Assembly: GCF_003254525.1 (NCBI RefSeq)
Contig: NZ_QFYS01000003.1
Location: forward strand, 124,001 to 188,000
Length of the DNA stretch: 64,000 nt
Direction of reading: 5' to 3'
Source of the DNA: Phenylobacterium kunshanense
GTDB taxonomy: Bacteria; Pseudomonadota; Alphaproteobacteria; Caulobacterales; Caulobacteraceae
Below the pieces are notes generated by a model. It was given only the letters and a program-made list of their open reading frames with translations. It searched no databases and had not been told where the DNA came from. Positions 40,018-55,500 of the stretch are shown in pieces. A program made the position numbers and the translations under genes. Within the stretch, counting starts at the first letter, position 1. Each line of letters starts with the position of its first letter.

Positions 40018-41196
40018 TCAGCGCTCCGCGGCGAGACCCTCGGCGAGGCGGGCGAGACCTAGCTCGACCGTTTGCACGTCGGCGCCGAAGCCGATGCGGA
40101 GGCGCCCTGGGGCGCCGAAATACTCGCCGGGCGCGACCAGCACGCCGTGGCGCTCGAACAGACGGCGAGCCAGCGCCCGCGTGTCGTCCACGCCCGGCAC
40201 GCGCGGGAAATACATGCAGCCGTAGGGCTGGAGTTCGCCTTCCAGAAGCCCCCTTCGAAGCAGCGCTTCGGCGGTACGCGCGACCGGCGCGCGGGTTGCG
40301 GCGAGGGTGCGGGTCCAATGCGCCTCGAACGGCGCGGGAGCCTCCAGCACATGGGCGGCCACGGCATGGGACAGCTTCGAGATGCCGATGTCGCCGTCGG
40401 GCGCGGCGGCGCGGATCTTCGCCAGCAGGCCCGCGTCGGCGGTAAGCCAGCCGAACTTGAGTGCGAAGAGGCCGAACACCTTGGTGAGGCTGGAGACCGT
40501 GACGATGTTGGGGGCAAGGGTCGCGGCGGGCGGATCCCCGGCCTCGCGGGCGAAGTCGGCATAGACCTCGTCCACTACCAGCACCGCCCCGACCCGGTCG
40601 GCGACGGCGGCGATGGCGGCGATTTCCGCGGGCGTCAGTCGCGCGCCGCTGGGGTTGTGCAGGTTGGTGATCAGGACAGCGCGGGTTCGGGGCGTCAGTC
40701 GGTCCGCCAGATCGTCCAGGTCGACGCGGAAATCCGGCGCGGGACGCCTGACATGGCCGACCACCGCGCCGACCTCGCGCGCCTGCCGCGCCAGGACGTC
40801 GAAGCCCGGCTGTTCCACCAGCACCTGGTCGCCAGGCTCCACCAGCGCCTTCAGGGTCAGGGCGAGGGCGCCTGTCGCGCCCGTGGTCGTGAGGATCTGG
40901 CCGGTCGCGAGGCCGTATCGCTGGGCCAGCGCTTCGATCGCGAAGCGGTTGCCGTCGGCGAAGACGCTCACGTAGCGCGAGGTGACGCTTGGCGAGAAGG
41001 CGTTGCGGACCACGTCCATCAGGGCGGCGGTGGGCTCGGCGATGGTGCTGTCCCACAGCATGGCCACGTCGGCCCCGGAATCGCGCACGCGCAGAACGCC
41101 GCGGCCCCATTCTGCATAGGACGGCGCCTCGAACAGGCTCTCGCCCGCAGCCAGGGGCTGCGCGCCGGGCGCGCGGGGCGATTGGGCAGAGGTCAA
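40018..41196 (-). CDS. class I/II PLP-dependent aminotransferase
   Basis: A fold-type I aminotransferase of about 392 residues. Seen: GATGALALTLKALVEPGDQVLVE split across strands, TNLHNPSGARL (cofactor Asn), VVDEVYADF (Asp for the pyridine nitrogen), SSLTKVFGLFALKFGWL with the Schiff-base lysine, and GRLRIGFG near the end (substrate Arg). No signal peptide. The start is uncertain: TTG at 41196 is preceded by AAGGA seven bases away; a TTG at 41223 would add nine residues without a ribosome site. Amino donor unknown. It is divergent from the first S10 peptidase gene, but no copy of the cluster motif points toward it. Confidence 0.88.
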   Translation of the reverse strand: MTSAQSPRAPGAQPLAAGESLFEAPSYAEWGRGVLRVRDSGADVAMLWDSTIAEPTAALMDVVRNAFSPSVTSRYVSVFADGNRFAIEALAQRYGLATGQILTTTGATGALALTLKALVEPGDQVLVEQPGFDVLARQAREVGAVVGHVRRPAPDFRVDLDDLADRLTPRTRAVLITNLHNPSGARLTPAEIAAIAAVADRVGAVLVVDEVYADFAREAGDPPAATLAPNIVTVSSLTKVFGLFALKFGWLTADAGLLAKIRAAAPDGDIGISKLSHAVAAHVLEAPAPFEAHWTRTLAATRAPVARTAEALLRRGLLEGELQPYGCMYFPRVPGVDDTRALARRLFERHGVLVAPGEYFGAPGRLRIGFGADVQTVELGLARLAEGLAAER

Positions 41197-41396
41197 CGAT
41201 ACGTCCTTACGCGCCGCCCCCAAGTTTGGCGGGTATCCGCAAGCTTAGGCGCCGCCGCCGGACAATCTTTGCGAATTTGCCTCAGGTCGCGGGGCGTCGC
41301 GCGTGGGCTATTCGTGCCGAAAGGCCTGGGCGCATAACTCATGCGTCAATGCGGGGAGACGCAGAACCATCCCTGTCGCTGGACGTCGCCCAGGCT

Positions 41397-41417
41397 GCAC
41401 AACGAAAGGAAAATCCG
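41397..41417 (+). promoter_or_regulatory. copy 1 of the peptide-cluster motif (AACGAAAGGAAAATCCG)
   Basis: The 17-base core is at 41401-41417, preceded by GCAC. The whole 21-base stretch is identical to the copy on the other strand at 55330-55350, almost 14 kb away. Its end is 41 bases before the S10 peptidase ATG. Promoter or activator site is inferred. Confidence 0.65.
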
Positions 41418-41458
41418 GGTGACGGCGGCTAGGGTGTCCGCAAGTCCGGGGGGTGCGC

Positions 41459-42973
41459 ATGAAGACTTTGCGGAGCGGCGGCCTGGCCGCGCTGGGTTTG
41501 ATCGTCCTTTCGTCCATGGGCGCGCCGTCGGCCGCCCAGACCCGGCCTGGCAGCCCCCCCGAGGCCACGGCTCAGGCCCCCCGGATGGCGGTGACCCGGC
41601 ATGTGGGCGTCTTCGGGGGGCAGAGGTTTCGCTACACGGCGACGGTCAGCGAAGTCCGCGTCGATGACGCTGCGGGCAAGCCGGTCGGCCACGCCACGAC
41701 GATCGCCTATGTGCGCGACGGCGTGAGGGAGCCGGCGAAGAGGCCAGTGGTGTTCGTGTTCAACGGGGGGCCAGGGGCCTCGTCGTCTCCGCTGCACATG
41801 AGCGCCATGGGGCCATATCGGCGAACGCCCGCAGCGCCTGGGGACCGCAGCGGCGGAGCCTGGGAGCCGAATCCCGAGAGCCCGCTGGACGTGGCGGACC
41901 TGGTGTTCATCGATCCCGTGGGGACAGGGTTTTCCCGCGCTTTGCCGGACGCCGACACAGGCGGTGTCTATTCGACCACCGGCGACGCCCTGGCGACACG
42001 GGATGTGATCGCTGGCTGGCTGAAGGCCAACGCCCGCGAGGCCTCACCCCGCTATATGGCCGGCGAGAGCTATGGCACGACGCGGGCGGCGATGCTGACG
42101 AAGGTGGCGAAGGATCTGCCGTTCGACGGCGTCCTGCTGATCGCCCTGGTGGGCGACACGCCCGGCCGTGAGATGCCGCATGTGGCGAGCCTGCCGACCA
42201 TGGCTGCGGGGGCCTGGCACTTCCAGACCATCGCCCGGGCGGGGCGGACCGTGGACCAGGTCTATGCCGAGGCCCTTCAGTTCGCGCGCACCGACTATGT
42301 GGCGGCGCTTATCCAGGGCGGCAGCCTGCCGGAGGCCGAGAAGCGCCGGGTCGCCGAGCGGATGTCGGCGCTGGTGGGGCTGCCCGCGGCGCTGATCCTG
42401 GAGAAGGACCTCAGGCTCTCCAAGAACGACTGGATGTTCAACGTCCTGAAGGACCGAGGCCTGCGTACGGGTCTCCTGGACGTCCGGGTGACCGCGCCGC
42501 TGGAGCCCGGGCAGGACGGGGCGATCGACGACCCCGCGCTGGGCGTCGTGCCGAAGCGGGCGCCGGGCGCGCCGGCCGGTCCGCCGCCGAGCCCCGCCGC
42601 CATCGGCGCGGTGCCCTCGCCGGTGGTCAGGCGCTACATGACCGAGGTGCTGAAGTTCCCCGCCGGCGCCGAGCCCTACTACGGCGTGAACTTCACCGTG
42701 AACGCGGCTTGGAAGCACGAGCGCGACGCTCGGGCCATGGAGGCCCTGGGCGCGGCGATGCGGGCGGACCCGACACTGCGGCTGTTCTGGGCGGCCGGCT
42801 ACTACGACCTGACCACCCCGGCCTATGCGGCGCGCTACACCCTGGACCAGGCGGGCGTGCCGGCGGGCCAGCTCACGGCGGCCTACTTCCCTGGTCCACA
42901 TGGTGTGTACGAGGGGCCGGAGAACCTGGCGCGGTTCAGCGCGGCGGTGCGGGCGTTCGTGACTGCGAAGTAG
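41459..42973 (+). CDS. exported S10-family serine carboxypeptidase-like protein (1)
   Basis: A 504-residue protein with a signal peptide (about 1-27). Alpha/beta-hydrolase features of S10 carboxypeptidases: the oxyanion segment FVFNGGPGASSS, IDPVGTGFS, the nucleophile in GESYGTTRAA (Ser204), the acid in GYYDLTTPAY, and the histidine in FPGPHGVYEG, where the paralogues have GGHM. The ATG at 41459 is preceded by a G-rich ribosome site; a GTG six bases earlier is an alternative. S10 enzymes remove C-terminal residues at acidic pH; bacterial members are exported and poorly studied. It has its own motif copy upstream and ends ten bases from the opposing S10 gene. Confidence 0.92.
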   Translation: MKTLRSGGLAALGLIVLSSMGAPSAAQTRPGSPPEATAQAPRMAVTRHVGVFGGQRFRYTATVSEVRVDDAAGKPVGHATTIAYVRDGVREPAKRPVVFVFNGGPGASSSPLHMSAMGPYRRTPAAPGDRSGGAWEPNPESPLDVADLVFIDPVGTGFSRALPDADTGGVYSTTGDALATRDVIAGWLKANAREASPRYMAGESYGTTRAAMLTKVAKDLPFDGVLLIALVGDTPGREMPHVASLPTMAAGAWHFQTIARAGRTVDQVYAEALQFARTDYVAALIQGGSLPEAEKRRVAERMSALVGLPAALILEKDLRLSKNDWMFNVLKDRGLRTGLLDVRVTAPLEPGQDGAIDDPALGVVPKRAPGAPAGPPPSPAAIGAVPSPVVRRYMTEVLKFPAGAEPYYGVNFTVNAAWKHERDARAMEALGAAMRADPTLRLFWAAGYYDLTTPAYAARYTLDQAGVPAGQLTAAYFPGPHGVYEGPENLARFSAAVRAFVTAK

Positions 42974-42983
42974 CCGCGCGCCG

Positions 42984-44558
42984 CTACTTCTTCTTCGTCG
43001 CGTCGCGGATGAGGGTGCGGACGTCGTCGGCGAAGGCTCCGGCGGTGTCGCCCAGGTACAGCATGTGGCCCGAGGCGTAGCGGCGCAGCATGGTGCGGTC
43101 GGGCGGGAGCCTGGCCTGCTCCACCGAGAACTCCGCCGGCGCCGAGTGGGTGGAGAAGTCGTAGTAGCCTGAGGCCACCAGCACCCTGAGCGTCTCGTTG
43201 CGCCGCATGGCGACGGCGAGGTCGGTGGCGAAGCTCTGGCCCGGCGGCACGCCCTTGCGGTCCCAGTTCCAGGACGGCAGCAGGTCCTTCCAGACGATGG
43301 CGCCGTAGGGACGGTCCATCTTCACCCCGAGGTCTTCCGCGACGGTCTGGTGGAAGGCGGCTAGGAAGCCGGGGACATAGCGGCCCATGGCGGGGTCGTC
43401 GCCGACGGGATCGTTCCCACTGCCCGCGAGCGGCAGGGTGTAGCGGGAATCGTAGGTCCCCACCTGCAGGCCCTGGTCGGCCAGGAGGCGGCGGGAGAAC
43501 TCGCCGTCGGACATCCTGAGCGACTTCTCCCAGGCGGCGGCGGGCAGGCCGGTGTAGCCGGCGAGCCGAGCGGCGACGGCGCCGCGCCGATCCGGCGACA
43601 GGCTGCCGGCCTTCTCGGCCTGGAGGGCGGCGAGGTAGTCGCCCTTGGCGAAGGCCAGGACCTCCTGATGGAAGGCCTCCAGGCCGCGGCCGGCGCGATC
43701 GACCTTCTGGTGATACCAGGCGGTGTCGGCCATGGCGGGCAGCATCAGGGCCTGGCGCATCTCGGCGCCCTCCGCGTCGGGCTGGCCGATGCGGGCGTTG
43801 AGGGTCGTGCCCAGCAAGACCACTCCGTTGACGGTGATCCCGCGCATCATGCCGACGTAGAGCGGCCCGCCCATCAGCGCCCGGGGCAGCACAGCGGCCC
43901 GGACCGAGCCGTAGCTCTCGCCCATCAGGAACTTCGGACTGTTCCAGCGGCCGTGTTCGGTGAGCCAGAGCTCGATGAACTGGGCCACGGTGTCGGCGTC
44001 CTCGTCGACACCCCAGAAGTCGGCGGTAGTCCCCTTGCCGACGACGCGCGACCAGCCCGTGCCGACAGGATCGATGAAGACCAGGTCGGCCACGTCGATC
44101 AGGCTGTAGGGATTGTCGGCGACGCCGAAGGGCGGGGTGTTGGACGGGTTCACCTCGCGGTCCAGCACCACGCGGCGGGGGCCGACGACGCCCATGTGGA
44201 GCCAGAGCGAGGAGGAGCCGGGGCCGCCGTTGAACACGAACAGAACCGGCCGGTTTGGATCCTTCGCGCCGTCGCGCAGGTAGCTGAACGAGAAGATCGA
44301 GCCGATCGGCTCGGCGGCACGGTTGTAGAGGTAGGTCTCGCCGGCGATGGCCGTGTAGGCGACCTTCTGGCCCTTGACGGTGATGCTGCGCTTGCTGAGG
44401 AAGCGTTTAGGCGCGGGCAGGGGCTCGACGGGGCCGGGCGCCGTGGGCCGCGACATGGGGATCGCGAAGGGGCTGGAGTTCGGCGGTGGCGGCGCTGTCT
44501 GGGCGAACGCGCCGCTTGCCGTGAGCAGCGCGGCGGCCAGGGTCGTGGCGAGCTTCAT
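42984..44558 (-). CDS. exported S10-family serine carboxypeptidase-like protein (2)
   Basis: A 524-residue paralogue with signal peptide ending AFAQ (about 20). Seen: FVFNGGPGSSSLWLHMG, IDPVGTGWS, GESYGSVRAA with Ser215, acid in SGYYDFSTHS and histidine in YASGHMLYLG. It ends KKK. The ATG overlaps the stop of the PLP-enzyme gene by four bases (ATGA), so the two are translationally coupled and, both being exported, probably act on one substrate in the periplasm. An insertion around 345-400 distinguishes it from copy 1. Converges with copy 1. Carboxypeptidase activity is the family expectation, not shown here. Confidence 0.92.
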   Translation of the reverse strand: MKLATTLAAALLTASGAFAQTAPPPPNSSPFAIPMSRPTAPGPVEPLPAPKRFLSKRSITVKGQKVAYTAIAGETYLYNRAAEPIGSIFSFSYLRDGAKDPNRPVLFVFNGGPGSSSLWLHMGVVGPRRVVLDREVNPSNTPPFGVADNPYSLIDVADLVFIDPVGTGWSRVVGKGTTADFWGVDEDADTVAQFIELWLTEHGRWNSPKFLMGESYGSVRAAVLPRALMGGPLYVGMMRGITVNGVVLLGTTLNARIGQPDAEGAEMRQALMLPAMADTAWYHQKVDRAGRGLEAFHQEVLAFAKGDYLAALQAEKAGSLSPDRRGAVAARLAGYTGLPAAAWEKSLRMSDGEFSRRLLADQGLQVGTYDSRYTLPLAGSGNDPVGDDPAMGRYVPGFLAAFHQTVAEDLGVKMDRPYGAIVWKDLLPSWNWDRKGVPPGQSFATDLAVAMRRNETLRVLVASGYYDFSTHSAPAEFSVEQARLPPDRTMLRRYASGHMLYLGDTAGAFADDVRTLIRDATKKK

Positions 44559-45784
44559 GCGGGCGGGGCCTTGGGCAGGACCGCGAGCAGGCGGTCGACG
44601 TCGTTCATGTCGTTGAACACCGAGAGCGAGACGCGGAAGCGGTTGGCGCTGACGGTCAGGCGAAGGTCGTTCCTGGCCAGCAGGTCGCTCAGCTTCGCCC
44701 GGGCGTCCTTGAGGGCGAAGGCGACCAGGGGCGTGCGGCTGCCGAGCGGTGTCATCGGCTGGTAGCCGCGGCGGCGAAGCTCGGTCTGGATCGCGTCGGC
44801 CATCGGCTGGCGGTAGGCCTGGATGCGGTCGACGCCCAGCCCGCGGATGAAGCCCAGGCTGTGCTCGAGCTGGACCACGCCGGTCCACGATGTGGTTCCC
44901 ATGGCGAACTTGCCGGTGGCGCCGGGGGCGTAGCCGTAGTCGGCGACCGCCTCGCCGGGCGGGTCGAAAGGGAAGACGTGGGTGACGAACCGGCCGCCGA
45001 CCTGGTGATAGCCCCACCAGGGCCGCGCGATCTTCTCCTGCACCTCGCGGCGCACGTAGAGGAAGGCGAGGCCGAAGTCGCCCATCAGCCACTTGTAGGA
45101 GGATGAGGCCGCGAAATCGACGCCGGCCGCCCGCAGGTCCAGGGGCGTGGAGCCGGCGCCGTGGACGATGTCGGCATAGACGTAGGCGCCGTGGGCGTGA
45201 GCCAGGTCGCAGACGGCCTTCAGGTCGTGCTCGAAGCCGTTGGTGGTCGAGACGTGGCTGATGGAGACCAGCTTCGTCCTGTCGTTCACGGCGGCCGCCA
45301 TGGCCTGCATGTCGATGCGACCCTCGGGGGTCATCGGCAGGGTCACCACGTCGACCCCAGCCTTGCCAAGCTCGCCGTAGGTGTAGAACGAGCCGAAGAA
45401 GTGCAGGGCGTCGGTGACGATGCGTCCGCCGGCCTCAGGGAAGCCCAGGGCCTGGAGGACGAGGTTCTCGCCCATGGTGGTGGACTGGATCATGGTCAGC
45501 TCGTCGGGCGCCGCGCCGACCAGGGCGCCGAAGCCCTCCACGACCGCCTTCTCCTTGGCGTCCATGCTGTAGCCGGGCCAGAGCCCGTCGCGGGTCTTGT
45601 AGCGGAGGTATTCCTCAAGCGCGGCGCGGGCGCCCAGCGGCATGGGATGGGTCGAGCCGCTGTCGAGGTAGACGTAAGGCATCTTCGCGAAGGCGGCCTT
45701 CGCCGGCAGGGCCTGCTCGGCGGCGTGGGCCAGGGCGGGCGCCGCTGCGGCGCCGGCGACGAGGGCTCTACGGGTGAATTCCAT
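44555..45784 (-). CDS. Tat-exported class V PLP enzyme (aminotransferase/cysteine desulfurase fold)
   Basis: A 409-residue fold-type I class V enzyme. The N-terminus FTRRALVAGAAAAPALA is a twin-arginine signal, so the cofactor-loaded enzyme should be exported folded. Seen: a cofactor-binding STTMGENLVL block (about 101-110), SHVSTTNGFEHDL, YADIVHGAG (Asp205), and the Schiff-base lysine in SSSYKWLMGDFG (Lys231). Relatives include isopenicillin-N-epimerase-like proteins and the periplasmic PvdN. It could act on an amino-acid or peptide substrate as an epimerase, lyase or oxidative enzyme. The motif copy at 45827-45843 lies 42 bases upstream; it is coupled to the S10 gene downstream. Confidence 0.9.
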   Translation of the reverse strand: MEFTRRALVAGAAAAPALAHAAEQALPAKAAFAKMPYVYLDSGSTHPMPLGARAALEEYLRYKTRDGLWPGYSMDAKEKAVVEGFGALVGAAPDELTMIQSTTMGENLVLQALGFPEAGGRIVTDALHFFGSFYTYGELGKAGVDVVTLPMTPEGRIDMQAMAAAVNDRTKLVSISHVSTTNGFEHDLKAVCDLAHAHGAYVYADIVHGAGSTPLDLRAAGVDFAASSSYKWLMGDFGLAFLYVRREVQEKIARPWWGYHQVGGRFVTHVFPFDPPGEAVADYGYAPGATGKFAMGTTSWTGVVQLEHSLGFIRGLGVDRIQAYRQPMADAIQTELRRRGYQPMTPLGSRTPLVAFALKDARAKLSDLLARNDLRLTVSANRFRVSLSVFNDMNDVDRLLAVLPKAPPA

Positions 45785-45826
45785 CGGGTCTCCTGCCCCT
45801 CGACGACAAGGCTAGCTCCGCAAGGT

Positions 45827-45843
45827 CGGATTATCCTTTCGAA
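45827..45843 (-). promoter_or_regulatory. copy 2 of the peptide-cluster motif (TTCGAAAGGATAATCCG)
   Basis: Minus-strand copy with four differences (first two bases, plus the AAAA to ATAA change at one position). Its end is 42 bases before the PLP-enzyme ATG. Contains the small dyad GGATAATCC. Confidence 0.6.
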
Positions 45844-45887
45844 CTTCGGGCGGGGCGCCGGGTCGCTTGGATGATTTATTCGTGGGC

Positions 45888-46370
45888 CTACCGGAACTGG
45901 CGGGCGACGAGCGGCACGGCCTGACTGCTCTTCTGGGCGCCGAGGGTGACAATGGAGCGGACGTCGACCACGCCGGGCAGCTTCAGCAGCACCGAGAAGA
46001 TGAAGTCCTGGTACCAGGCGACGTCGGGGGCCAGGATCTTCATCATGGCGTCCATCTCGCCGAATACGGTCCAGCAGTCCTGGATTTCCGGGATGCTGTT
46101 GATCGCCTTGTAGAAATTCGCCCGCTCGGCCTCGGTGAGCGTGGTCATCTTCACCTGGGCGAAGATCTGCATCTTGTAGCCGAGCTTCTCGTGGTCGACG
46201 ACGGCGACGATCCCCTTGATGTAGCCCTCCTCGCGCAGCCGCTGGATGCGCCGCCAGCACGGCGACTGCGACAAGCCTACCCGCTCCGCCAGCTCGCCCG
46301 TCGAGAGCGAGGCGTCCTTCTGCATCAGCTCCAGGATCTTGATGTCGATCGCGTCCAGCGGGGCGGGCAT
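45888..46370 (-). CDS. Lrp/AsnC-family transcriptional regulator
   Basis: A 160-residue feast/famine regulator. The N-terminal HTH (about 5-55; AIDIKILELMQKDASLSTGE, then LAERVGLSQSPCWRRIQRL) and C-terminal RAM ligand domain (about 75-145; FYKAINSIPEIQDCWTVFGE) are both complete. The ATG at 46370 has AGGA seven bases upstream. Lrp proteins sense amino acids. It lies between the PLP-enzyme/S10 operon and the TonB receptor, so it is the natural candidate regulator of the peptide cluster, although no copy of the shared motif is seen at its own promoter. A 25-base palindrome lies 112 bases upstream in the divergent control region. Confidence 0.95.
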   Translation of the reverse strand: MPAPLDAIDIKILELMQKDASLSTGELAERVGLSQSPCWRRIQRLREEGYIKGIVAVVDHEKLGYKMQIFAQVKMTTLTEAERANFYKAINSIPEIQDCWTVFGEMDAMMKILAPDVAWYQDFIFSVLLKLPGVVDVRSIVTLGAQKSSQAVPLVARQFR

Positions 46371-46481
46371 AGAAATGTCCTGTGCGGCAAGGTTGCGCGC
46401 ATAGCGGATGCACGAAACGTCGCTGTCAAGGCTGGGCTGTGTCGGTTGGCGGGACCCGGCGTCACCGTCGGTTCCTGCATT

Positions 46482-46506
46482 GGCCATGCACGGCCGTGCT
46501 GTGGCC
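46482..46506. promoter_or_regulatory. palindrome around GCACGGCCGTGC between lrp and TonB receptor
   Basis: GCACGGCCGTGC (46488-46499) is perfect; flanks GGCCA (46482-46486) and TGGCC (46502-46506) extend it with one extra base on the right. Within the 273-base divergent gap. Candidate operator for the Lrp protein or another regulator. Confidence 0.4.
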
Positions 46507-46545
46507 TGCATTATCAATCTGTGACGCGCGCGTGATGCTTCCAAG

Positions 46546-46562
46546 AACGAAAAGAAAAACCG
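46546..46562 (+). promoter_or_regulatory. copy 3 of the peptide-cluster motif (AACGAAAAGAAAAACCG)
   Basis: Matches the core at 15 of 17 positions. Its end is 81 bases before the receptor ATG, about twice the distance seen at the other four copies, so the receptor mRNA may have a longer leader. Confidence 0.55.
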
Positions 46563-46643
46563 AGCCTCCGACATTACCGTTCGTTCACGCAGAGCTCTGG
46601 GCGGGTCCCTAACCCTCCTGTCCGGGCCGGAACCGCGGGGGAT

Positions 46644-49616
46644 ATGATGATCGGGAATTCGGTGCGCGGGCGGCTGTTCGCCTCGACCATGGTGGCGGGC
46701 CTCGCGCTGACGGCGGCCCAGCCGGCCGCGGCCCAGGCCGTGGGCGACGCGCAGGAGCTGGGCGAGGTGGTCATCACCGGCTCGCGCATCAAGCGCGCCG
46801 AGACGACGACCGAAGCGCCGGTGGCGGTGATCGACGCCCAGGCGATCATGGACCGCGGCTTCGTGCAGGCCGGTCAGGCGCTGAACGAGCTCACCTCCAA
46901 CATGCCTCAGTTCGCCATCGCGCCCGGCAACGGGGCGGCGGCTGGCAGCGGCCAGCAGTTCCCGAACATCTTCGGCCTCGGACCGGGACGCACGCTGACG
47001 CTGGTCAACGGCCGCCGGTTCGTGACCTCCTCGCAGGGCCTGGGCGACCGGGTGGTCGACACCAACATCATCCCGACAGGCCTCATCCAGCGTGTGGATG
47101 TGGTCCAGGGCGGCGGCGCCGCCGTCTACGGCTCGGACGCCATCGCCGGGGTGGTGAACTACGTCCTGAAGGACAACTTCGAGGGCCTGGAGCTGGACGC
47201 CCAGTACGGCATCAGCTCGCGCAACGACTATCCGGAGTCCAGCCTGCGGGCGACGGCCGGCCGCAACTTCCTGGACGACCGCGCGAACCTCGCGGTGAAC
47301 CTGGAATGGTCGAAGACCCGGCCGCTGTACGACTACGACCGCCCCCGCTCGAACCTGGGCCGGGTGACGATCTCGAACCCGCTGAACCGCTCGAATTCCG
47401 ACGGGATCCCCGCCGTCACCGAGAACCTCAACACGCGGTTCGTGAGCTTCAACGCCAACGGCGTGCTGTTCAATCCGGGCCCGCCCTTCGCCAGCTCGAT
47501 CTACCGCGTCGGAGGCGTGCCGCAGCAGTTCAACGCCGCCGGCACGGCGCTGGTCCCGTACAGCATCGGCAACCTGCTCAACAACGCGGTCCCGCCCTTC
47601 ACCAGCGGCGGCGACGGCAATCCGTACCAGGAACTCGCGGCGCTCTACACGGGTGTCGAGCGCTGGGCCGGCACCGTGGTGGGTCACTACGACATCACCG
47701 ACCGCATCAAGCTGTCGGGCGAGCTTCTCTACGCCCGGGTCGGAAGCCGCGACCCCTATGGCAACCAGGCCAGCAATACGGTGCTGAACAACGCCGCCAG
47801 CGGCGCCGGCGCGATCTCGGTGTCCCGCACGAACCCGTATCTGTCGCCCGAGGTGCGGGCGATCCTTGGGCCGGCCGGCGCGCCGCTGACGCTCTCGAAG
47901 TGGTGGAGCGACCTGCTGCCGACCCGCGAGAACAACCTGCAGACCGACACCGTCCGGGCCCTGCTGGCCCTCGACGGTGACTTCGACGTGGGCGAGCGGA
48001 ACTTCTACTGGAGCGTCTCGGCCAGCCATGCCGAGACCGACGGCGAACTGCGCGGCTGGGGCGTCTGGACCTCGCGGTTCAACAATGCGGTCAACGCGGT
48101 GCGGAACTCGGCCGGCAACATCGTCTGCGGGATCAACGCCGACGCCTCGACGGCCAATGACGACCCGGCCTGCGCGCCGCTGAACCCGTTCGGCGTGGGC
48201 AACGTCAGCCAGGAGGCGCGGCTCTACGTGACCACGCCGATCGGCCAGGACTACCTCAACACCCAAGACGACTATCTGGCGACCCTGGGCGGCGACCTGA
48301 TCGCCCTGCCGGGCGGCAAGGCGAAGTTCAGCGTCGCCTACGAGCACCGCGCGGAGAAGGCCAAGTTCGTCCCACTGGCGGCAAACCAGCAGGGCCTCGT
48401 CGGCTCGCGGGTGCCGACGGTCGCCACCGGCGGCAAGTTCAACACCGACGAGTTCTCGGCCGAGCTGCTGGTCCCGGTGCTGGGCGGCGATTTCAGCCTT
48501 CCGTTCGCCCGGTCGGTCGAGCTGAACGGCGCCTACCGCTATGTGGACCATTCCATCGCCGGCAAGGAAGACGTCTGGGGCGTAGGCGGCCGCTGGGAAG
48601 TGGTCGAGGGCTTCACGCTCCGCGCCTCGCGCAGCCGCAACTTCCGGGCTCCCACCCTCGACCAGCTCTTCGCGCCGACGCGGACGGCGCTGGGCTCGAT
48701 CGGGGTGGATCCATGCGACGCCGACCGGATCGCGTCCGGCCCCGCGCCGGCCACGCGCCTCGCCAACTGTCAGGCGCTGTTCCGGGCCAACCCCGGCTAC
48801 GGCAATCTCGCCACCTTCCAGGACTTGGCCGAGAACTTCTCCTCGGCTCAGATCACCACGGGCGGCAACTCGGCGCTGAAGAACGAAATCGCCAAGACCT
48901 GGACCTACGGCTTCGTCTTCCAGCCGACGTTCATCCCGGGCCTGACGATCGTCGCCGACCGCGTCGAGGTGGACCTGACCAACGGCCTGTCGGCGTTCAC
49001 GCCACAGAACTTCCTGGAGACCTGCTTCGACTCCTCGCCGCAGCCGGCCGACATCTGCTCGACCTTCGCGCGTGATGCGGCGGGCCAGATCATCTCGGCG
49101 CGCTCGACGACGTTCAACGCGGGCCGAACCACGTTCCGCGGTGAGGTCTACAACATCAACTACACCTTCCCGATCGGCCGGTTCTTCGAGGACCGCGATC
49201 TGGGCGAGCTGGAGCTGAACCTGGAGGCGACCCGCACCGAGAAGCTGGAAGTGTCGGTGACCGGCTTCGATGTGCTCCGCGTGGACAACACCTCCTCGAC
49301 GACCGGCTACGGTCCGTCGCCGGACTTCGCAGCGAAGTTCGACGCGCGGTTCCGCAAGGGTCCGTTCCGCGCGACCTACACCATGAACTATCTGTCGCCG
49401 GTGAAATTCCAGGCCAACTCGACCATCGAGACGGTGCCGACGCCGACGATCAAGGAGAACATCCGGCACAATGTGTCGGCCTCGTACGACTTCCTGAACT
49501 ACACGGTCCGGGCCGGGGTCACCAACCTGACCGACGAGGAGCCGTCGTTCCCCACCCGCACCTATGGCGACATTCTTGGCCGGCGGTACTTCGTCGGCGT
49601 GAAGGCCAGGTTCTAG
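46644..49616 (+). CDS. large TonB-dependent outer-membrane receptor
   Basis: A 990-residue receptor. Signal peptide ends AAAQA (about 31), then a TonB-box-like GEVVITGSRIKR, a plug (about 50-175; VNGRRFVTSSQGLGDRVVDT, then VQGGGAAVYGSDAIAGVVNY), and a barrel ending FVGVKARF. The ITGSRI box, NIFGLG and long barrel are typical of receptors that, in Caulobacterales and Sphingomonads, sit beside exported peptidases. Start: two adjacent ATG codons at 46644/46647 after a G-rich site. It leads a unit with the OCD-family enzyme and M61 peptidase, separated from them by a hairpin. Predicted to import the substrate that the exported peptidases process. Confidence 0.94.
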   Translation: MMIGNSVRGRLFASTMVAGLALTAAQPAAAQAVGDAQELGEVVITGSRIKRAETTTEAPVAVIDAQAIMDRGFVQAGQALNELTSNMPQFAIAPGNGAAAGSGQQFPNIFGLGPGRTLTLVNGRRFVTSSQGLGDRVVDTNIIPTGLIQRVDVVQGGGAAVYGSDAIAGVVNYVLKDNFEGLELDAQYGISSRNDYPESSLRATAGRNFLDDRANLAVNLEWSKTRPLYDYDRPRSNLGRVTISNPLNRSNSDGIPAVTENLNTRFVSFNANGVLFNPGPPFASSIYRVGGVPQQFNAAGTALVPYSIGNLLNNAVPPFTSGGDGNPYQELAALYTGVERWAGTVVGHYDITDRIKLSGELLYARVGSRDPYGNQASNTVLNNAASGAGAISVSRTNPYLSPEVRAILGPAGAPLTLSKWWSDLLPTRENNLQTDTVRALLALDGDFDVGERNFYWSVSASHAETDGELRGWGVWTSRFNNAVNAVRNSAGNIVCGINADASTANDDPACAPLNPFGVGNVSQEARLYVTTPIGQDYLNTQDDYLATLGGDLIALPGGKAKFSVAYEHRAEKAKFVPLAANQQGLVGSRVPTVATGGKFNTDEFSAELLVPVLGGDFSLPFARSVELNGAYRYVDHSIAGKEDVWGVGGRWEVVEGFTLRASRSRNFRAPTLDQLFAPTRTALGSIGVDPCDADRIASGPAPATRLANCQALFRANPGYGNLATFQDLAENFSSAQITTGGNSALKNEIAKTWTYGFVFQPTFIPGLTIVADRVEVDLTNGLSAFTPQNFLETCFDSSPQPADICSTFARDAAGQIISARSTTFNAGRTTFRGEVYNINYTFPIGRFFEDRDLGELELNLEATRTEKLEVSVTGFDVLRVDNTSSTTGYGPSPDFAAKFDARFRKGPFRATYTMNYLSPVKFQANSTIETVPTPTIKENIRHNVSASYDFLNYTVRAGVTNLTDEEPSFPTRTYGDILGRRYFVGVKARF

Positions 49617-49648
49617 TACGGCGCGAGCCAGAGTATCGGATCGCGTGG

Positions 49649-49680
49649 ACGCGGCGGCGGACCCCACTTCGCCGCCGCGT
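49649..49680 (+). terminator. hairpin between TonB receptor and OCD-family gene
   Basis: ACGCGGCGGCG (49649-49659) and CGCCGCCGCGT (49670-49680), 11 bp with a 10-base loop, followed by TCGTCATT. It starts 33 bases after the receptor stop and ends 20 before the next ATG. A partial terminator or mRNA stabiliser that lowers expression of the downstream enzymes is likely. Confidence 0.55.
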
Positions 49681-49700
49681 TCGTCATTGGAGGGTCACCC

Positions 49701-50642
49701 ATGCGGTTCATCGACCAGGACGAGGTGCGCGAGCGGCTGACCTACGAACTGTGCATCCCCCTCGTGCGGCAGGCGATGATCGCCTTTTCGCGTGGGGAGA
49801 CCCGCCAGCACCTGCGCTCGATCCTCCCGCTCAGCGAGGGGCGGGTGCTGGGGATCATGCCGGGGGCCCTGGGCGAACACGCCATGTTCGGCGCCAAGCT
49901 GATCAGCGTCTTTGCCGGGAATTTCGCCAAGGGCATCCAGTCGCACCAGGGCGTGGTCGTGCTGTTCGACGGCGAGAGCGGGGCGCCCGTCTGCATCGCC
50001 CATGCCGGCGAGGTCACGGCGATCCGGACCGCCGCCGCCAGCGCCGTGGCCACCGACGCGCTGGCGCGGCCCGACGCGGCGCGCATGGCGATCCTGGGCT
50101 ATGGCGAGCAGGCCCATACCCACGCACGGGCCATCTCGAAGGTGCGCAAGCTGGAGGCGATCACCGTCTGGGGCCGGGACCCCGCGCGCGCCAAGGCGTT
50201 CGCCAAGTCGGTGGAGGTCGAACTGGGCCTGCCAGTGTTCGTCGCCTCGACCGTCCGCCAGGCCGTCACCGGCGTCGACATCGTGACGACAGTGACCAAT
50301 GCGCGGGAGCCGATCCTGGAGGGGGCCTGGCTGGCGCCGGGCACGCACCTGAACCTTGTGGGCTCGAGCGGCGCGGGACCGACCGAGGTGGATCACGAGG
50401 TGGTGGTCCGTTCGCGCTTCATCGCCGACAGCCGCGAGGGCGTGCTGGCTCAAGGGGCCGAGTTCCTGCGCGCCAAGGCTGCCGGGCTGGTGGACGACAG
50501 CCATGTCGTGGGCGAGATCGGCCAGGTGCTTGCCGGCGACCTGGAAGGGCGGCAGTCGCGCGACCAGATCACGGTCTACAAGTCGCTCGGACACATCGTG
50601 CAGGACCTGGCGGCCGCCAAGGCGCTCTACGAGGCCGGCTGA
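49701..50642 (+). CDS. ornithine cyclodeaminase/mu-crystallin family enzyme
   Basis: A 313-residue NAD(P)-dependent protein of the OCD/mu-crystallin family. Seen: KLISVFAGNF, HAGEVTAIRTAAASAVATDA, the Rossmann loop LGYGEQAHTH (about 134-143), VTTVTNAREPIL and HLNLVGSSGAGPTEVD. The loop is GYGEQA rather than the common GTGVQA. Family activities include ornithine to proline, alanine dehydrogenase and pyrroline-2-carboxylate reductase, so which amino or imino acid it uses cannot be told. Start ATG with GGAGG seven bases upstream. No signal peptide: it should act on amino acids after uptake. Its stop overlaps the M61 start by one base. Confidence 0.92.
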   Translation: MRFIDQDEVRERLTYELCIPLVRQAMIAFSRGETRQHLRSILPLSEGRVLGIMPGALGEHAMFGAKLISVFAGNFAKGIQSHQGVVVLFDGESGAPVCIAHAGEVTAIRTAAASAVATDALARPDAARMAILGYGEQAHTHARAISKVRKLEAITVWGRDPARAKAFAKSVEVELGLPVFVASTVRQAVTGVDIVTTVTNAREPILEGAWLAPGTHLNLVGSSGAGPTEVDHEVVVRSRFIADSREGVLAQGAEFLRAKAAGLVDDSHVVGEIGQVLAGDLEGRQSRDQITVYKSLGHIVQDLAAAKALYEAG

Positions 50643-52336
50643 TGCGTCGCCTGTCGTTCGTCCTTGCTGCGGCGGCCGCCGCCACCGCCGTCCACGCCCA
50701 GACACCGCCGGAGCTCCGCGTACGCCTCGCGCCGGGACCGATGGACCAGACCGCCGGCAAGGGTTTCGTGGATGTGACCCTGACCGTTCCCCAGGTTGAC
50801 GCGGCAGAGGGCGCGCCGCTGCTGACCCTGCCGGTGGTGATCGCCAATACGGACACTGTGGCGAACACGCTGACCGGCCTGAAGGCGGTGGACGCCCTCG
50901 GCGAGGTCCCGCTGACCGTGAAGGACGACCCCGTCGCCATCGCCTATGCGCGGCGCTGGCTGGCCGGGCGGGCCGTGAAGGGCGATGTGACCGTCACCTA
51001 TCGGGCGCCCGTGGACAACACGCCGCCGACGCGCGGTTCGGGCCCGCCCTACAGCTTGCGGACCGAGGGCGGCGGCGTATCGGGTGTCGGCAACACCTTC
51101 ATCCTACTCCCTGAGGGCGGCCGCTCTTACCGGATCGCGCTGACTTGGGACCTCACGCGCCTGGGCGCCGGGGCCAAGGCCATGTCCAGCCTGGGTGAGG
51201 GTGACGTGCGGCTGGAGCCGGGCCCGGTCGAGCGCCTGCACCGCTCGCTGTTCATGGCCGGGGACATGCGCCGCGTGCCGGCGGAGGTGAAGCCGACCGG
51301 CTTCTCGGCCGCCTGGCTGGGCGACCCGCCGTTCGACCCGCGCCCGCTGATGACCTGGGCCGGCGAGCTTCACGGCTGGATGAGCGGCTTCTTCCAGGAC
51401 CCGACCCAGCCGCCGTACCGGGTGATCCTGCGTTACAACCCGATCAATGCCGGCGGCGGGGCGGCGCTGGCCAACTCCTTCCTGCTGACCTGGGGCGAGA
51501 CCGCCAAGGACCCCGAGGGGCTCAAGGGCACCCTGGCGCACGAGATGATCCATACCTGGACGGCCGGCGGGCTTGGCGGCCAATGGTACGGCGAGGGGAT
51601 CGCGGTGCACTACCAGGCGCTGCTGCCGCTGCGCGCGGGCCTGATCAAGCCCGAGGCCTATCTCGAGGACATCAACGACACGGCGCGGCGCTACTACACC
51701 AATGCGCTCAACGACACGCCGGACGACCAGATCGCCCCGCGGTTCTGGGAGGACACCCGGATCCGCGTGCTGCCGTACGACCGCGGCGCCATGTACTTCG
51801 CGGTTCTGGACGGGAAGATCCGCCGCGCGTCTGGCGGCAAGCGGTCGCTGGACGAGCTGGTGATCGAGATGTCGCGCCGGCGCCGCGTCGGCGAGCCGGT
51901 GACGGACGCAGTGTGGCTGGAGCTGCTGGACGGCGCGCTGGGGCCGGAGGGCCGGAAGGTCCACGCCGACATGCTGGCGGGCCGCTTGATGCTGCCCGAG
52001 GCGGGGGACTTCGGCCCCTGCTTCACGCGCACGACCGCTCGGTTCCGTCGTTTCGAGCTGGGCTTCGAGCCGAAGTCTCTGGTGGGCGCCGTGAAGACGA
52101 TCCGCGGCGTGCAGCCGGGATCGGAAGCCGCCAAGGCGGGGCTCCGCGACGGCGACGTGGTGACCTATGCCGCGGCTCTGGACGGGGTGCAGGGCGACCA
52201 GAAGCGCACCCTGACCTTGAACGTCACCCGCGACGGCAGGACCTTCCCGATCACCTACCTTCCGCGCGGCGAGTTGGTCGAGGCCTGGCAGTGGAGGCGT
52301 GTGCCCGGCGTGCCTGACGGCGCCTGCGGGAACTAG
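50642..52336 (+). CDS. exported M61-family (glycyl aminopeptidase-like) metallopeptidase with PDZ domain
   Basis: A 564-residue protein with a signal peptide ending HAQ (about 20). A beta-rich N-terminal domain is followed by a gluzincin active site AHEMIHTWTAGG (His300, Glu301, His304), with a third ligand in QWYGEGIAVHY (Glu318), and a PDZ-like tail (about 475-545; IRGVQPGSEAAKAGLRDGDV). This is the M61 order, though the overall sequence is divergent and somewhat short. M61 enzymes cleave N-terminal Gly/Ala residues. Coupled to the OCD gene (TGATG). Its stop overlaps that of the opposing S10 gene by four bases. Periplasmic aminopeptidase activity complementing the carboxypeptidases is the simplest reading. 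Confidence 0.88.
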   Translation: MRRLSFVLAAAAAATAVHAQTPPELRVRLAPGPMDQTAGKGFVDVTLTVPQVDAAEGAPLLTLPVVIANTDTVANTLTGLKAVDALGEVPLTVKDDPVAIAYARRWLAGRAVKGDVTVTYRAPVDNTPPTRGSGPPYSLRTEGGGVSGVGNTFILLPEGGRSYRIALTWDLTRLGAGAKAMSSLGEGDVRLEPGPVERLHRSLFMAGDMRRVPAEVKPTGFSAAWLGDPPFDPRPLMTWAGELHGWMSGFFQDPTQPPYRVILRYNPINAGGGAALANSFLLTWGETAKDPEGLKGTLAHEMIHTWTAGGLGGQWYGEGIAVHYQALLPLRAGLIKPEAYLEDINDTARRYYTNALNDTPDDQIAPRFWEDTRIRVLPYDRGAMYFAVLDGKIRRASGGKRSLDELVIEMSRRRRVGEPVTDAVWLELLDGALGPEGRKVHADMLAGRLMLPEAGDFGPCFTRTTARFRRFELGFEPKSLVGAVKTIRGVQPGSEAAKAGLRDGDVVTYAAALDGVQGDQKRTLTLNVTRDGRTFPITYLPRGELVEAWQWRRVPGVPDGACGN

Positions 52337-53790
52337 CGGCCAGAAACCAGGGCCCGGATATCCTGGCTGAACTGCAGACGTGTCGGCTGGTCGCGGTACA
52401 TCATGTGGCCGCCGGGGTAGCACTTGAACCGCATGGAGGCCTTCAGCGGCGCGGGCAGGGTCCGGGCGATCTCCTCGTCGCCGGCGCAGTTGGCGAGGGA
52501 GTCGTAGAGGCCTGACGCGACGAGCACGCGCAGCTTCGGGTTCAGCGCGACGGCTTCCGCGGTCCCGGGCAGCGGCGGACCCAGGCGCGGCGGGCCAGCG
52601 CCGGTGCGGACGGCCTCGGCGATGGCGGCCTGGCGCTCCTCGGGCGTCACCTTGGCGGTGGCGTAGTCCCAGCGCGCGCCGACCGAGGCGGGCGGCTTGC
52701 CGTCGGGCAGGTAGGCGTCCTCCAGCGGTTCCAGGCCGACGTACGGCAGGTCCGTGGCGTAGCCGAGGTCGCGGCGCAGGTAGCGGAGGATGGCCTCGCG
52801 GGAGGACTCCCGAGGCTCGTCGGCGAGGCGCATGTCGAAGATGTTCAGCGTCTTGCCGGCCACCAGCTGCGTCCGAAACTGGCGGGGCGTGATCGCGAGG
52901 GTCCTGCGGTCGATCCGGTCGGCCGGGACACCGGTGAAGCGCGACAGGCCCGCAGCGACCTGATCTCGCTCGTCGGGGGTGAGTTGCTCAAGGCGGGCGA
53001 TCGCCGGAGCGTAGGTCTCTCGGATCCACTGGGCCGCAGCGCGCTCCACAGCAGCGGACGTCGCGCCGACGTCGGGCGCGAGTTTGCCGTGGTGGAAGGC
53101 CGTCGCGGCGAAGCCGACGATCTTCAGCGGGCCGACCGGGCCGTCGTCGCCCAGGCGGGAGAGGCCCGTGCCCCCTGAGACGAGCCCGAGACCATCGACA
53201 CGGACTCCGCGCTTCAGCAGCGCATGGCCGACGCCGGCCGCCCGGCCGGCGCCCCAGCTCTCGCCGATGAGGTAGAGGGGGCTCGCCTCGGCGCCGTGGG
53301 TCAGGCGCCACGCGCGGACGAACTCGGTGACCGAGGCCACGTCGCCGACCGTGCCGTAGAACTGTTCGCCGTATTCCGCCTTGGCCGGCCGGCTGAAGCC
53401 CGTGCCGATGGGATCGACGAAGACGAGGTCGGCGTCGGTGAGCCAGGTCTCGTGGTTGTCGACCAGCTTGCCGGATTCGGCGCGCTTCGGGCCGGCGACC
53501 TCGAAGTGCAGCGTCGCCGAATTGGCCCCCGGTCCGCCGTTCCACACGAAGGCCAGCGGCCGCGGCTTCGCGGAGGGGACACGGTAGGCGATGTAGCCCA
53601 TCCAGCCCCGGACCTCGCCGGTCTCGGCGTCGCGGATCGCGAGACGGCCGACCTCGGCGGTGTAGGCGAGCGGCCCGCCGTTCACCGTCATCCGGTGCTG
53701 GGAGACGACCGGGGTCTCGGCCGCGGGCAGGGCGACGGCGGGGGCTGCGGCCGCGAGCGCCAGGCTGGCGGCGAGGGCGAGGCGTCTCAT
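52333..53790 (-). CDS. exported S10-family serine carboxypeptidase-like protein (3)
   Basis: A 485-residue paralogue with a signal peptide (about 1-20). Seen: FVWNGGPGANSATLHFE, VDPIGTGFS, nucleophile in GESWGAGRAAG (Ser178), acid in SGLYDSLANC and histidine in YPGGHMMYRD. It is the most divergent of the four: NGGPGAN replaces NGGPGSS/ASS and GESWG replaces GESYG. This suggests a different side-chain preference at the scissile bond. The ATG overlaps the stop of the upstream S10 gene by four bases, so the two are coupled in one operon reading from 55283. Complete and intact. Confidence 0.92.
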   Translation of the reverse strand: MRRLALAASLALAAAAPAVALPAAETPVVSQHRMTVNGGPLAYTAEVGRLAIRDAETGEVRGWMGYIAYRVPSAKPRPLAFVWNGGPGANSATLHFEVAGPKRAESGKLVDNHETWLTDADLVFVDPIGTGFSRPAKAEYGEQFYGTVGDVASVTEFVRAWRLTHGAEASPLYLIGESWGAGRAAGVGHALLKRGVRVDGLGLVSGGTGLSRLGDDGPVGPLKIVGFAATAFHHGKLAPDVGATSAAVERAAAQWIRETYAPAIARLEQLTPDERDQVAAGLSRFTGVPADRIDRRTLAITPRQFRTQLVAGKTLNIFDMRLADEPRESSREAILRYLRRDLGYATDLPYVGLEPLEDAYLPDGKPPASVGARWDYATAKVTPEERQAAIAEAVRTGAGPPRLGPPLPGTAEAVALNPKLRVLVASGLYDSLANCAGDEEIARTLPAPLKASMRFKCYPGGHMMYRDQPTRLQFSQDIRALVSGR

Positions 53791-55283
53791 GCGGGCTGGC
53801 CGCCCTGGACCCAGGCGCGGATGTCGTCCGTGAAGGCTTTCAGGCTGGGTTCGTGGGTGTAGGCCATGTGGCCGCCCTCGTACTGACGCTGGATGACCCG
53901 GTCGCGCGGCCAGTCGCTCTTGGTGACCATGTAGCGGGCCGGACCGACGGTCGTGGTGAGGTCGTAGATGCCGGTGCCGATCATCAGCTGGAATTTTGGA
54001 TTGGCCTTGAAGGCGGCGGTGAGGCGGGCGGGGTAGTCGTAGTCGAGGAATGGGCCGCCGGGTCCGAGCGTGCCGTTCCAGGCCCAGCCGCCGGTCTCGG
54101 GAGCCAGGCTCCGATACTCCGACGCCGGCCAGGTCACGCCGAGGGTCTGGGCGTAGTGGGCCAGCATGGCCGGCTGGATCGGGGCGGTGACCTTGGCGAA
54201 GGGGTCGACGTGGCGCTGGCCCGGCCCGGGGGCGGGGCCGGCGTAGCGGGCGTCGTACATGCCGAGCACCTGCCCCTTGTCTTTCAAGAGCTCGCGCAGG
54301 AAGGCGATCTTGGTGATCTGCAGGTCGTTGGCGAGATAGTAGTCGGCCGAGATCCCCGTGTAGGCCTGGAGCTGGACCGCGATGCGGCGTCGGCCCGCCT
54401 CGGGCAGGTCGTAGCCGCGCAGCAGCGCCTGGACGTACTCGCCCATGCCCCAGGCGTAGACCTCATCGATGAAGGTGGCCATCGAACGGCCCTTGAGATC
54501 CGCGCGGCCGTGGTAGGCGGCGATGGCGGCCAGGGCGGGCAGGTTGGTTCCGTACGAGACCACGTTCTTCGCCCGCTGGCTGGTCTCGATCATGTTGACC
54601 GCCTGGCCGAAGAGGAAGACGCCGTCGAGCGGCAGGACCGGCGCGAGCTGCCCTGCCATCAGGGCCGCGCGCAGCGTGCCGTAGCTCTCGCCCAGCACGT
54701 ACTTCGGCGAGGCCTCACGGCCGTTGGCCTTGCACCAGGCGATCACGAAGTCGGACACCGACTGGGCGTCGCCCTCCACCGAGTAGAACAGCTCGCGGCG
54801 GCCGCCGGGCAGCACGCGGGAGTAGCCGGTCTCCGCCGGATCGATGAAGACGATGTCGGCGACGTCGAGGACGGTGGCTGTGTTGTCCGTGAGTTGTGGG
54901 CCGGGCGATGGCGCGGCTGGATCCTGCGCCACAACCAGCCGCCTTGGACCCAGCGCCATCATGTGCAGCGTGGCCGAGGAGGAGCTGGGACCGCCGTTGA
55001 AGGCGAAGAGCACGGGGCGCTTCGCCGGATCGCCGCCGCGGGCGACATAGGAGGTGGAGACGAACCGCGCGGTCGGACGACCGTCCGGGGTGGCGATGAG
55101 CGTCTCGCCGACGGTGGCGACGTAGTCGACCTTGCGGCCGTTGAAGACGCCCTTGTGGCGGGTGACGAAGGGGCCGCCGGACGTCGCGACGGGACCCTGG
55201 GCGGCGGCGTCCTGGGCGCGGGTGGCGCCGGCCATGGCGAACGCGCCGGCGGCCAACAGCGCTCTCTTGGTGACCTGCGGCAT
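53787..55283 (-). CDS. exported S10-family serine carboxypeptidase-like protein (4)
   Basis: A 498-residue paralogue with signal peptide (about 1-24, TKRALLAAGAFAMAGATRAQ). Seen: FAFNGGPSSSSATLHMM, IDPAETGYS, GESYGTLRAA with Ser200, acid in GTGIYDLTTT, histidine in YEGGHMAYTH. NGGPSSSS replaces the usual NGGPG: the oxyanion glycine is serine, unlike the other three. The start at 55283 is chosen over 55289 because GAGGGG then has proper spacing. First gene of the two-S10 operon. A motif copy identical over 21 bases to that of S10 (1) is 46 bases upstream. Divergent from the amidohydrolase gene, which has its own copy. Confidence 0.92.
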   Translation of the reverse strand: MPQVTKRALLAAGAFAMAGATRAQDAAAQGPVATSGGPFVTRHKGVFNGRKVDYVATVGETLIATPDGRPTARFVSTSYVARGGDPAKRPVLFAFNGGPSSSSATLHMMALGPRRLVVAQDPAAPSPGPQLTDNTATVLDVADIVFIDPAETGYSRVLPGGRRELFYSVEGDAQSVSDFVIAWCKANGREASPKYVLGESYGTLRAALMAGQLAPVLPLDGVFLFGQAVNMIETSQRAKNVVSYGTNLPALAAIAAYHGRADLKGRSMATFIDEVYAWGMGEYVQALLRGYDLPEAGRRRIAVQLQAYTGISADYYLANDLQITKIAFLRELLKDKGQVLGMYDARYAGPAPGPGQRHVDPFAKVTAPIQPAMLAHYAQTLGVTWPASEYRSLAPETGGWAWNGTLGPGGPFLDYDYPARLTAAFKANPKFQLMIGTGIYDLTTTVGPARYMVTKSDWPRDRVIQRQYEGGHMAYTHEPSLKAFTDDIRAWVQGGQPA

Positions 55284-55329
55284 GGACATCCCCCTCGCGA
55301 GCTTCCCGGGGACGCTAACCCAGCGCCGA

Positions 55330-55350
55330 CGGATTTTCCTTTCGTTGTGC
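55330..55350 (-). promoter_or_regulatory. copy 4 of the peptide-cluster motif, identical to copy 1
   Basis: On the minus strand this reads GCAC followed by AACGAAAGGAAAATCCG, 21 of 21 identical to 41397-41417. Outside this stretch the two regions differ, so the identity is not a recent duplication of the whole promoter. End is 46 bases before the S10 (4) ATG. Confidence 0.65.
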
Positions 55351-55440
55351 CGCTGGCGCGCCGGAGCGTCGGCATAGGCTATGCCGTCCGGGCGCCGCGC
55401 CTGCATTGAAGTCGTCGCGCCGCGGGGGCGCCTGACGCAG

Positions 55441-55458
55441 TTCGAATAGAAAAACCCG
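55441..55458 (+). promoter_or_regulatory. copy 5 of the peptide-cluster motif (TTCGAATAGAAAAACCCG)
   Basis: The weakest copy: 13 of 17 positions match copy 3 when aligned without gaps, and it begins TTCGAA like copy 2. Its end is about 42 bases before the amidohydrolase ATG, the spacing shared by the better copies. Confidence 0.45.
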
Positions 55459-55500
55459 GTCTGCGGGGTACGATGATGCCGAGCCGGTTTGGGGGTCTCG

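Follow-up and report, generated by a model that had tools for sequence, protein, structure and literature searches.

We analysed a 64,000-nucleotide stretch of the Phenylobacterium kunshanense genome (contig NZ_QFYS01000003.1, positions 124,001 to 188,000; hereafter the window), in which six transcription units with genes for peptide import and peptide degradation flank a single regulator gene, lrp, and a short sequence motif precedes each unit. The grouping into units was inferred from gene order and closeness. From left to right, the units are a single-gene unit for a class I/II aminotransferase (40018-41223, minus strand); an S10 serine carboxypeptidase gene (S10a; 41459-42973, plus strand); a class V aminotransferase gene with an S10 peptidase gene (44555-45784 and 42984-44558, minus strand); genes for a TonB receptor, an enzyme of the ornithine-cyclodeaminase/mu-crystallin family and an M61-like peptidase (46644-49616, 49701-50642 and about 50642-52336, plus strand); a pair of S10 genes (S10d at 53787-55283 and a second at 52333-53790, minus strand); and an amidohydrolase gene with an amino-acid permease gene (55501-57528 and 57569-58867, plus strand). 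The regulator gene (45888-46370, minus strand) encodes a protein of the Lrp/AsnC family with a helix-turn-helix (HTH) and a ligand-binding domain, the presumed binding protein. A LysR-type gene (58859-59755) neighbours the cluster. The preliminary description of this DNA counted five units and missed the copy of the motif before the class I/II aminotransferase; with that copy the units number six, to which lrp itself is added.

The five copies described earlier were all found at their places in the window, before S10a (41401-41417, plus strand; AACGAAAGGAAAATCCG), the class V aminotransferase unit (45827-45843, minus), the TonB-receptor unit (46546-46562, plus), the S10d unit (55330-55346, minus) and the amidohydrolase unit (55441-55457, plus). 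Within three mismatches of the consensus AACGAAAGGAAAATCCG, a search of the window returned four of the five, where 0.03 are expected in shuffled sequence. The copies before S10a and S10d are identical over 21 bases, as had been claimed (GCACAACGAAAGGAAAATCCG; 41397-41417, plus; 55330-55350, minus). Six places in the 4.18-Mb genome lie within three mismatches, four of them the cluster copies; the other two (L004 and L005) were rejected as regulatory sites, since both appear, by eye in 301 bases each, to lie inside coding sequence. From 71 distinct sites, 65 entered an alignment and a 40-column sequence-only profile, whose five best genome matches were the five copies (expectation values, E, of 3.9e-7, 2.8e-6, 7.4e-6, 2.6e-5 and 0.07). 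The profile was built with the window sites, so the rank of the five is not independent, whereas the absence of other matches is: the next three had E of 0.2-0.8. Own-genome profile matches L122-L124 were rejected as cluster sites, as their 3-kb loci contain no cluster genes. At the thresholds used, the motif is confined to the peptidase cluster, in agreement with the preliminary description. A sixth, weaker copy (TTCGCAAAGATTGTCCG; 41259-41275, minus) lies ahead of the class I/II aminotransferase gene, which diverges from S10a. This copy is beyond the reach of a three-mismatch search, yet it is conserved: 26 of 27 relatives score above all 30 shuffles, and the site is found in two gene arrangements among relatives.

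Downstream of the motif, the hexamer TAnnnT starts 12 nt after the 17-mer in 66 of the 71 sites, 11 nt after it in four and 13 nt after it in one; before class I/II aminotransferase genes it stands at 11 nt in 24 of 27. In the window these hexamers are TAGGGT for S10a (41430-41435, plus; 12 nt after the motif), TAAGCT for the class I/II aminotransferase (41242-41247, minus; 11 nt), TAGCCT for the class V aminotransferase unit (45809-45814, minus), TACCGT for the TonB-receptor unit (46575-46580, plus), TAGCGT for the S10d unit (55312-55317, minus) and TACGAT for the amidohydrolase unit (55469-55474, plus; 11 nt). TAnnnT resembles the −10 consensus of Caulobacter sigma-73, GCtANAWC, as given in the available parts of PMC5324124 and PMC8144410. 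If TAnnnT is taken as the −10 box, the centre of the motif falls near −32, and the motif fills the −35 position. The fixed spacing proposed earlier therefore exists, but the distance that matters is the 11-12 nt to the −10 box and not the distance to the start codon. TTGAC occurs in none of the 65 aligned sites, and likeness to TTGACA at spacers of 15-19 was no better than in shuffled motifs (at least 4/6 in 4 of 65, vs. 16% of shuffles). With a 17-bp spacer, the hexamer agrees with TTGACA at 3/6 positions in 56 of the 65, and a scan with the sigma-70 consensus found no sites where 0.9 were expected. These features are consistent with a sigma-73-like −10 box and a deficient −35 region in all six promoters, which fits an activated housekeeping promoter.

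A fixed distance to a −10 element and a −35 position would also suit the −35 element of an alternative sigma factor of the extracytoplasmic function (ECF) type. We consider this very unlikely. The −10 hexamer resembles that of housekeeping sigma-73, as noted above from partial texts; the nearest match to sigma region 4 (PF08281), in a search confined to that family, lies about 20 kb off (C29:202569); and the palindromes at −41/−72 and the palindromic sphingomonad version of the motif, both described below, would be left unexplained.

Conservation was examined in loci that carry a relative of the class V aminotransferase gene; the best 80 of 215 were fetched and their cluster genes mapped. The near set consists of 33 loci and the window; it is mostly Caulobacteraceae but includes Steroidobacter (L051) and a few unassigned metagenome-assembled genomes. 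Upstream regions were scored on the coding strand with a matrix from the five window copies (score at least 14), and single-letter shuffles served as controls here and in the sphingomonad, class I/II aminotransferase, lrp-palindrome and upstream-palindrome tests. In the near set, with a coordinate artefact (L043) excluded, the motif was present upstream of orthologues of the TonB receptor (24/26), S10a (13/16), S10d (9/17), the amidohydrolase (4/6) and the class V aminotransferase (22/35). It was found before none of the presumed operon-internal genes (M61/cyclodeaminase 0/14, S10b 0/26, S10c 0/13, permease 0/7), where 'M61' matches, made with the first 300 residues, mark the cyclodeaminase-family gene and the M61 row refers to the sequence before that gene. 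The coding strand of lrp also lacked it (0/38), and opposite-strand matches accompany divergent neighbours (S10a 10/16, S10d 6/17, lrp 17/38). The class V aminotransferase retains its site when the gene lies away from the cluster (L067, L160); in L044 and L067 it has no other cluster genes within 10 kb and keeps a good proximal site. Caulobacter segnis FS (L050) is one relative in which Lrp, the TonB receptor, both aminotransferases and proximal sites are all present.

The motif and Lrp occur together across the genus. In a survey of 101 genomes (motif at E ≤ 0.01 with stricter filters, Lrp at E ≤ 1e-45), 34 had the motif and 33 had Lrp; both were present in 32, Lrp only in one and the motif only in two. 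The 4 kb retrieved for each of the two motif-only matches (G178, G318) contained no cluster gene; in the Lrp-only genome, the 19 kb retrieved contained none besides lrp. Among the motif matches listed from other genomes, all 29 loci adjoin cluster genes.

The motif does not stand alone. It has recurrent 15-bp palindromes of the form CGCAT-N5-ATGCG on its upstream side, at exactly 41 and 72 bp from its centre. Over 98 promoters, the mean arm match was 6.62/10 at 41 bp, 6.55 at 72 bp and 6.05 at offset 0, which is the motif itself, against a background of 2.63 (sd 0.64); the 41 and 72 peaks have z of about 6, and the next offset reaches 4.09 (z 2.3). At least 7 of 10 arm bases were matched in 61 of the 98 promoters at each exact offset and, within 1 bp, in 62 at 41 and 70 at 72, compared with a mean of 5.6 and a 95th percentile of 21 at random offsets. 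Both palindromes were present within 1 bp in all 24 TonB-receptor promoters, and one or both in the promoters of the class I/II aminotransferase (26/26), S10a (13/13), S10d (8/9) and the amidohydrolase (3/4). Such 15-mers occur at 0.48% of window positions, yet all six promoters have one or more at the 41- or 72-bp offset; the chance own-genome matches L122 and L123 have no upstream palindrome. Among ten cluster promoters with previously unused upstream sequence, three of them from near-identical relatives, nine carried it. The steps of 31, 41 and 72 bp correspond to three, four and seven helical turns.

The divergent promoters of the window have one palindrome in common. CGCATAACTCATGCG (41331-41345) separates the promoters of the class I/II aminotransferase and S10a and is equally distant (72 bp) from their two proximal sites, and GGCATAGGCTATGCC (55371-55385) lies 41 bp from the S10d site and 72 bp from the amidohydrolase site. 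Degenerate palindromes stand at the 41-bp offset upstream of two sites, that of the class I/II aminotransferase (41300-41314, minus; 8/10 arm bases; 103 bp from the S10a site) and that of the class V aminotransferase (45868-45882, minus; 7/10 arm bases). The TonB-receptor site has TGCATTGGCCATGCA (46476-46490) at 72 bp and the degenerate TGCATTATCAATCTG (46507-46521; 7/10 arms) at 41 bp. Within this palindrome array, the motif is the member closest to the promoter, and a degenerate one. The earlier description of it as non-palindromic suits the Caulobacteraceae copies taken by themselves, which are weakly dyadic, but not the array to which they belong. Chance, or a dispersed repeat without a regulatory role, might be entertained for a handful of copies in one genome; the window shuffles, the confinement to the cluster, the conservation of site, spacing and orientation in relatives, the genus survey and the array offsets are all contrary to it, and we give it practically no credence.

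The orthologous cluster of sphingomonads has a palindromic motif, which emerged from an unseeded Gibbs search. A seeded search placed it in 76 of 154 upstream regions vs. 3.7 (maximum 9) in shuffles, with a matrix trained on the tested sequences, and put the best dyad centre at motif position 10, in a register set by the chosen seeds. In some of these sites, as in those of Phenylobacterium, TAnnnT follows after 11-12 nt. All eight orthologous lrp genes of the set have a copy across the start codon, which itself supplies part of the match. The Nitrospirillum, Novosphingobium-2 and most of the Brevundimonas rows of the Gibbs search returned coding-sequence conservation.

The protein encoded at 45888-46370 matches PF13404, PF13412 and PF01037 above cut-off, that is, an AsnC-type HTH and ligand-binding domain, and its residues 4-152 align with E. 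coli Lrp (2gqq); 3i4p is also a related structure. Lrp was found (at least 150 bits) in 57 of 84 loci. Its own promoter differs in build from the other six. In 30 of 33 lrp genes, the −10 box is covered by a palindrome (GCATCCGCTATGC) that comes after a conserved TTGACA; in the window, TTGACA lies at 46424-46429 and the palindrome TGCATCCGCTATGCG at 46398-46412, both on the minus strand, and we presume that it serves autoregulation. According to the available part of a review, Lrp dimers bind imperfect inverted repeats of 13-17 bp that are clustered and aligned by helical turns (PMC2995911). Imperfect inverted repeats of this size are present here at 41 and 72 bp and in the lrp promoter, with several sites per target on one helical face. 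The phased palindromes, together with the palindrome in lrp's own promoter, make Lrp the leading candidate for the regulator, as the preliminary description had proposed.

Another DNA-binding protein could occupy the array, be it a regulator that is not linked to the cluster, the neighbouring LysR-type protein or a distant paralogue of the AsnC type: Lrp binding was deduced from sequence, and a second, distant AsnC-type gene (<40% identity) is present in 9 of 84 loci. We judge this improbable. A homologue of the LysR gene was found in just one of the 84 loci, and that locus lacks the permease; 44 loci hold the permease and 31 of them reach at least 1 kb past it, none with LysR, although shorter loci cannot tell. 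Among the top 14 neighbour clusters, one family that does not bind DNA recurs widely (14/35) and the rest are in at most five loci. The array also has features of the Lrp family as reviewed in the accessible text of PMC2995911, and the lrp promoter carries the palindrome.

We think it likely that the motif is the promoter-proximal operator of the cluster-specific Lrp/AsnC regulator, which would activate the six units that bear arrays and repress itself. The array of each unit comprises a degenerate 15-bp site at the −35 position, centred at about −32, together with one or two CGCAT-N5-ATGCG palindromes that lie upstream of it by 41 bp, 72 bp or both and face the same side of the helix. An octamer of Lrp, or its dimers, may bind this array cooperatively and wrap the DNA; Lrp would most likely hold the housekeeping RNA polymerase at the six promoters and activate them. 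Activation presumably responds to an amino acid or small peptide, to judge from the gene content. Its own promoter, where TTGACA is canonical and a palindrome covers the −10 box, is most likely repressed by Lrp. The sites, their geometry, their conservation, their exclusivity to the cluster and their co-occurrence with Lrp are observed, and binding by Lrp, the sign of control and the nature of the effector are probable deductions. The claim that a dedicated site makes these genes a regulon is well backed by the confinement, the conservation, the −10 geometry and the co-occurrence with Lrp; the idea of a stand-alone, non-palindromic element finds no support.

The sign of control has an alternative. 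The same Lrp and the same operators might repress the six units, with the proximal site occluding sigma and the array wrapping the promoter shut until an effector releases it. The proximal site does cover the −35 position, lrp's own promoter looks autorepressed, and a need to keep a −35 hexamer within the site, such as the 3/6 match at the 17-bp spacer, would also produce rigid spacing. A promoter that is solely repressed, however, needs a working −35 box, as lrp's own has, whereas TTGAC is missing from all 65 sites and their best TTGACA matches do not exceed those of shuffles. We regard repression of the six units as unlikely, if a good deal less so than a different protein or an ECF sigma factor. 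Activation is favoured because the −35 box is replaced by a site at a fixed distance from the −10 box, and because six promoters have no −35 box while the repressed-looking lrp promoter has a perfect TTGACA.

Several observations weigh against the Lrp-operator reading. The centre of the site near −32 is closer to the start than most known activator sites. The Caulobacteraceae proximal motif is only weakly dyadic (2 of 7 dyad pairs are strong, and 48 of 2000 column permutations are at least as symmetric), and the class V aminotransferase promoters carry an upstream palindrome in just 10 of 22. The palindrome by itself is not specific in the genome, where it has five exact places, one of them in the cluster; 55 promoters outside Caulobacteraceae show weak upstream peaks (75, 97 and 41 bp). 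A sphingomonad matrix made without lrp sites ranked the lrp palindrome best in just 13 of 36 lrp upstream regions. The co-occurrence ties the motif to the cluster, and alone it cannot separate Lrp from the cluster; nor could co-variation with the operator be read, since the recognition helix of Lrp is nearly invariant among relatives. Finally, the promoters are related by descent, so that the z-scores overstate independence and the statistics measure conservation more than independent origin.

The known Lrp/AsnC arrays (E. coli Lrp and the archaeal Ss-LrpB, Ptr2 and FL11; PMC2995911, in part) likewise have imperfect repeats of about 15 bp, several per target, helically aligned and variably degenerate. 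Their centre spacings are two or three turns; here they are 31 bp (three turns) upstream and 41 bp (four turns) to the proximal site. Unlike the arrays in that portion of the review, those of the window place the proximal site on the −35 position and serve, at the thresholds used, one cluster only. The abstract and part of the text on PutR of Caulobacter crescentus (PMC6168545) present an Lrp-like, proline-responsive activator of putA, which resembles our Lrp as an alphaproteobacterial, Lrp-like local activator of amino-acid use. This precedent shows that Lrp-like proteins of Caulobacter can activate. The abstract gives PutR one target gene vs. six units here, and the main text, as available, is without 'motif', 'binding site' or 'palindrom'. 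DriD, a WYL-domain activator of Caulobacter, has a site that overlaps a poor −35 and keeps a constant distance from the −10, and works with sigma-73 polymerase (PMC12340889, passages of a preprint). The placement of its site relative to −35 and −10 is like that seen here, but it belongs to another protein family, and those passages describe no upstream phased palindrome array. In the literature searched, with most subscription journals outside its reach, no description of the regulon or of its base-exact architecture was found.

More tentatively, with rather less confidence than in the operator itself, we suggest a general form for this arrangement. Local Lrps may use a rigid three-site ruler (0/41/72 bp, four plus three turns), in which the proximal operator replaces the −35 box and the Lrp-wrapped particle stands in for the sigma contact at −35. 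The proximal dyad would have been mostly lost in Caulobacteraceae and kept in sphingomonads, and divergent promoters would share the central palindrome.

Some loci depart from the common pattern. In a Phenylobacterium subclade (L054, L056, L057, L060, L062, L065) the cluster has two Lrp paralogues, and the class V aminotransferase site, where seen, has diverged (e.g. ATGGACAAGATAATGTC); none was found in L065. A duplication of the regulator with divergence of the operator is a possible explanation. Steroidobacter gossypii (L051), a gammaproteobacterium, has the class V aminotransferase (70%), Lrp (72%) and a proximal motif before an S10 gene, which suggests horizontal transfer. Two observations concern the genes of the window. 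An 861-residue open reading frame (49751-52336) starts in a shadow frame of the ornithine-cyclodeaminase/mu-crystallin-family gene (49701-50642; PF02423, E 5e-74), for which 14 of the 35 near loci have a relative. The M61-like gene itself has its start near 50642 and encodes a signal-like N-terminus. The N-terminus of the class V aminotransferase (44555-45784), MEFTRRALVAGAAAAPALAH, resembles a twin-arginine (Tat) export signal, as in periplasmic pyridoxal phosphate enzymes of the PvdN kind.

Taken together, these results describe a lineage-conserved and probably Lrp-controlled regulon, in which a known kind of control has an unusually clean, base-exact architecture. They define sharply a regulon of six units and a regulator for a peptide-scavenging cluster whose genes occur from Phenylobacterium to sphingomonads. 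With site positions fixed to the base, it offers a natural test bed for activation by the Lrp family and for helical phasing, and it points to a way in which the symmetry of a palindromic operator may be lost once the operator has to sit on a promoter.

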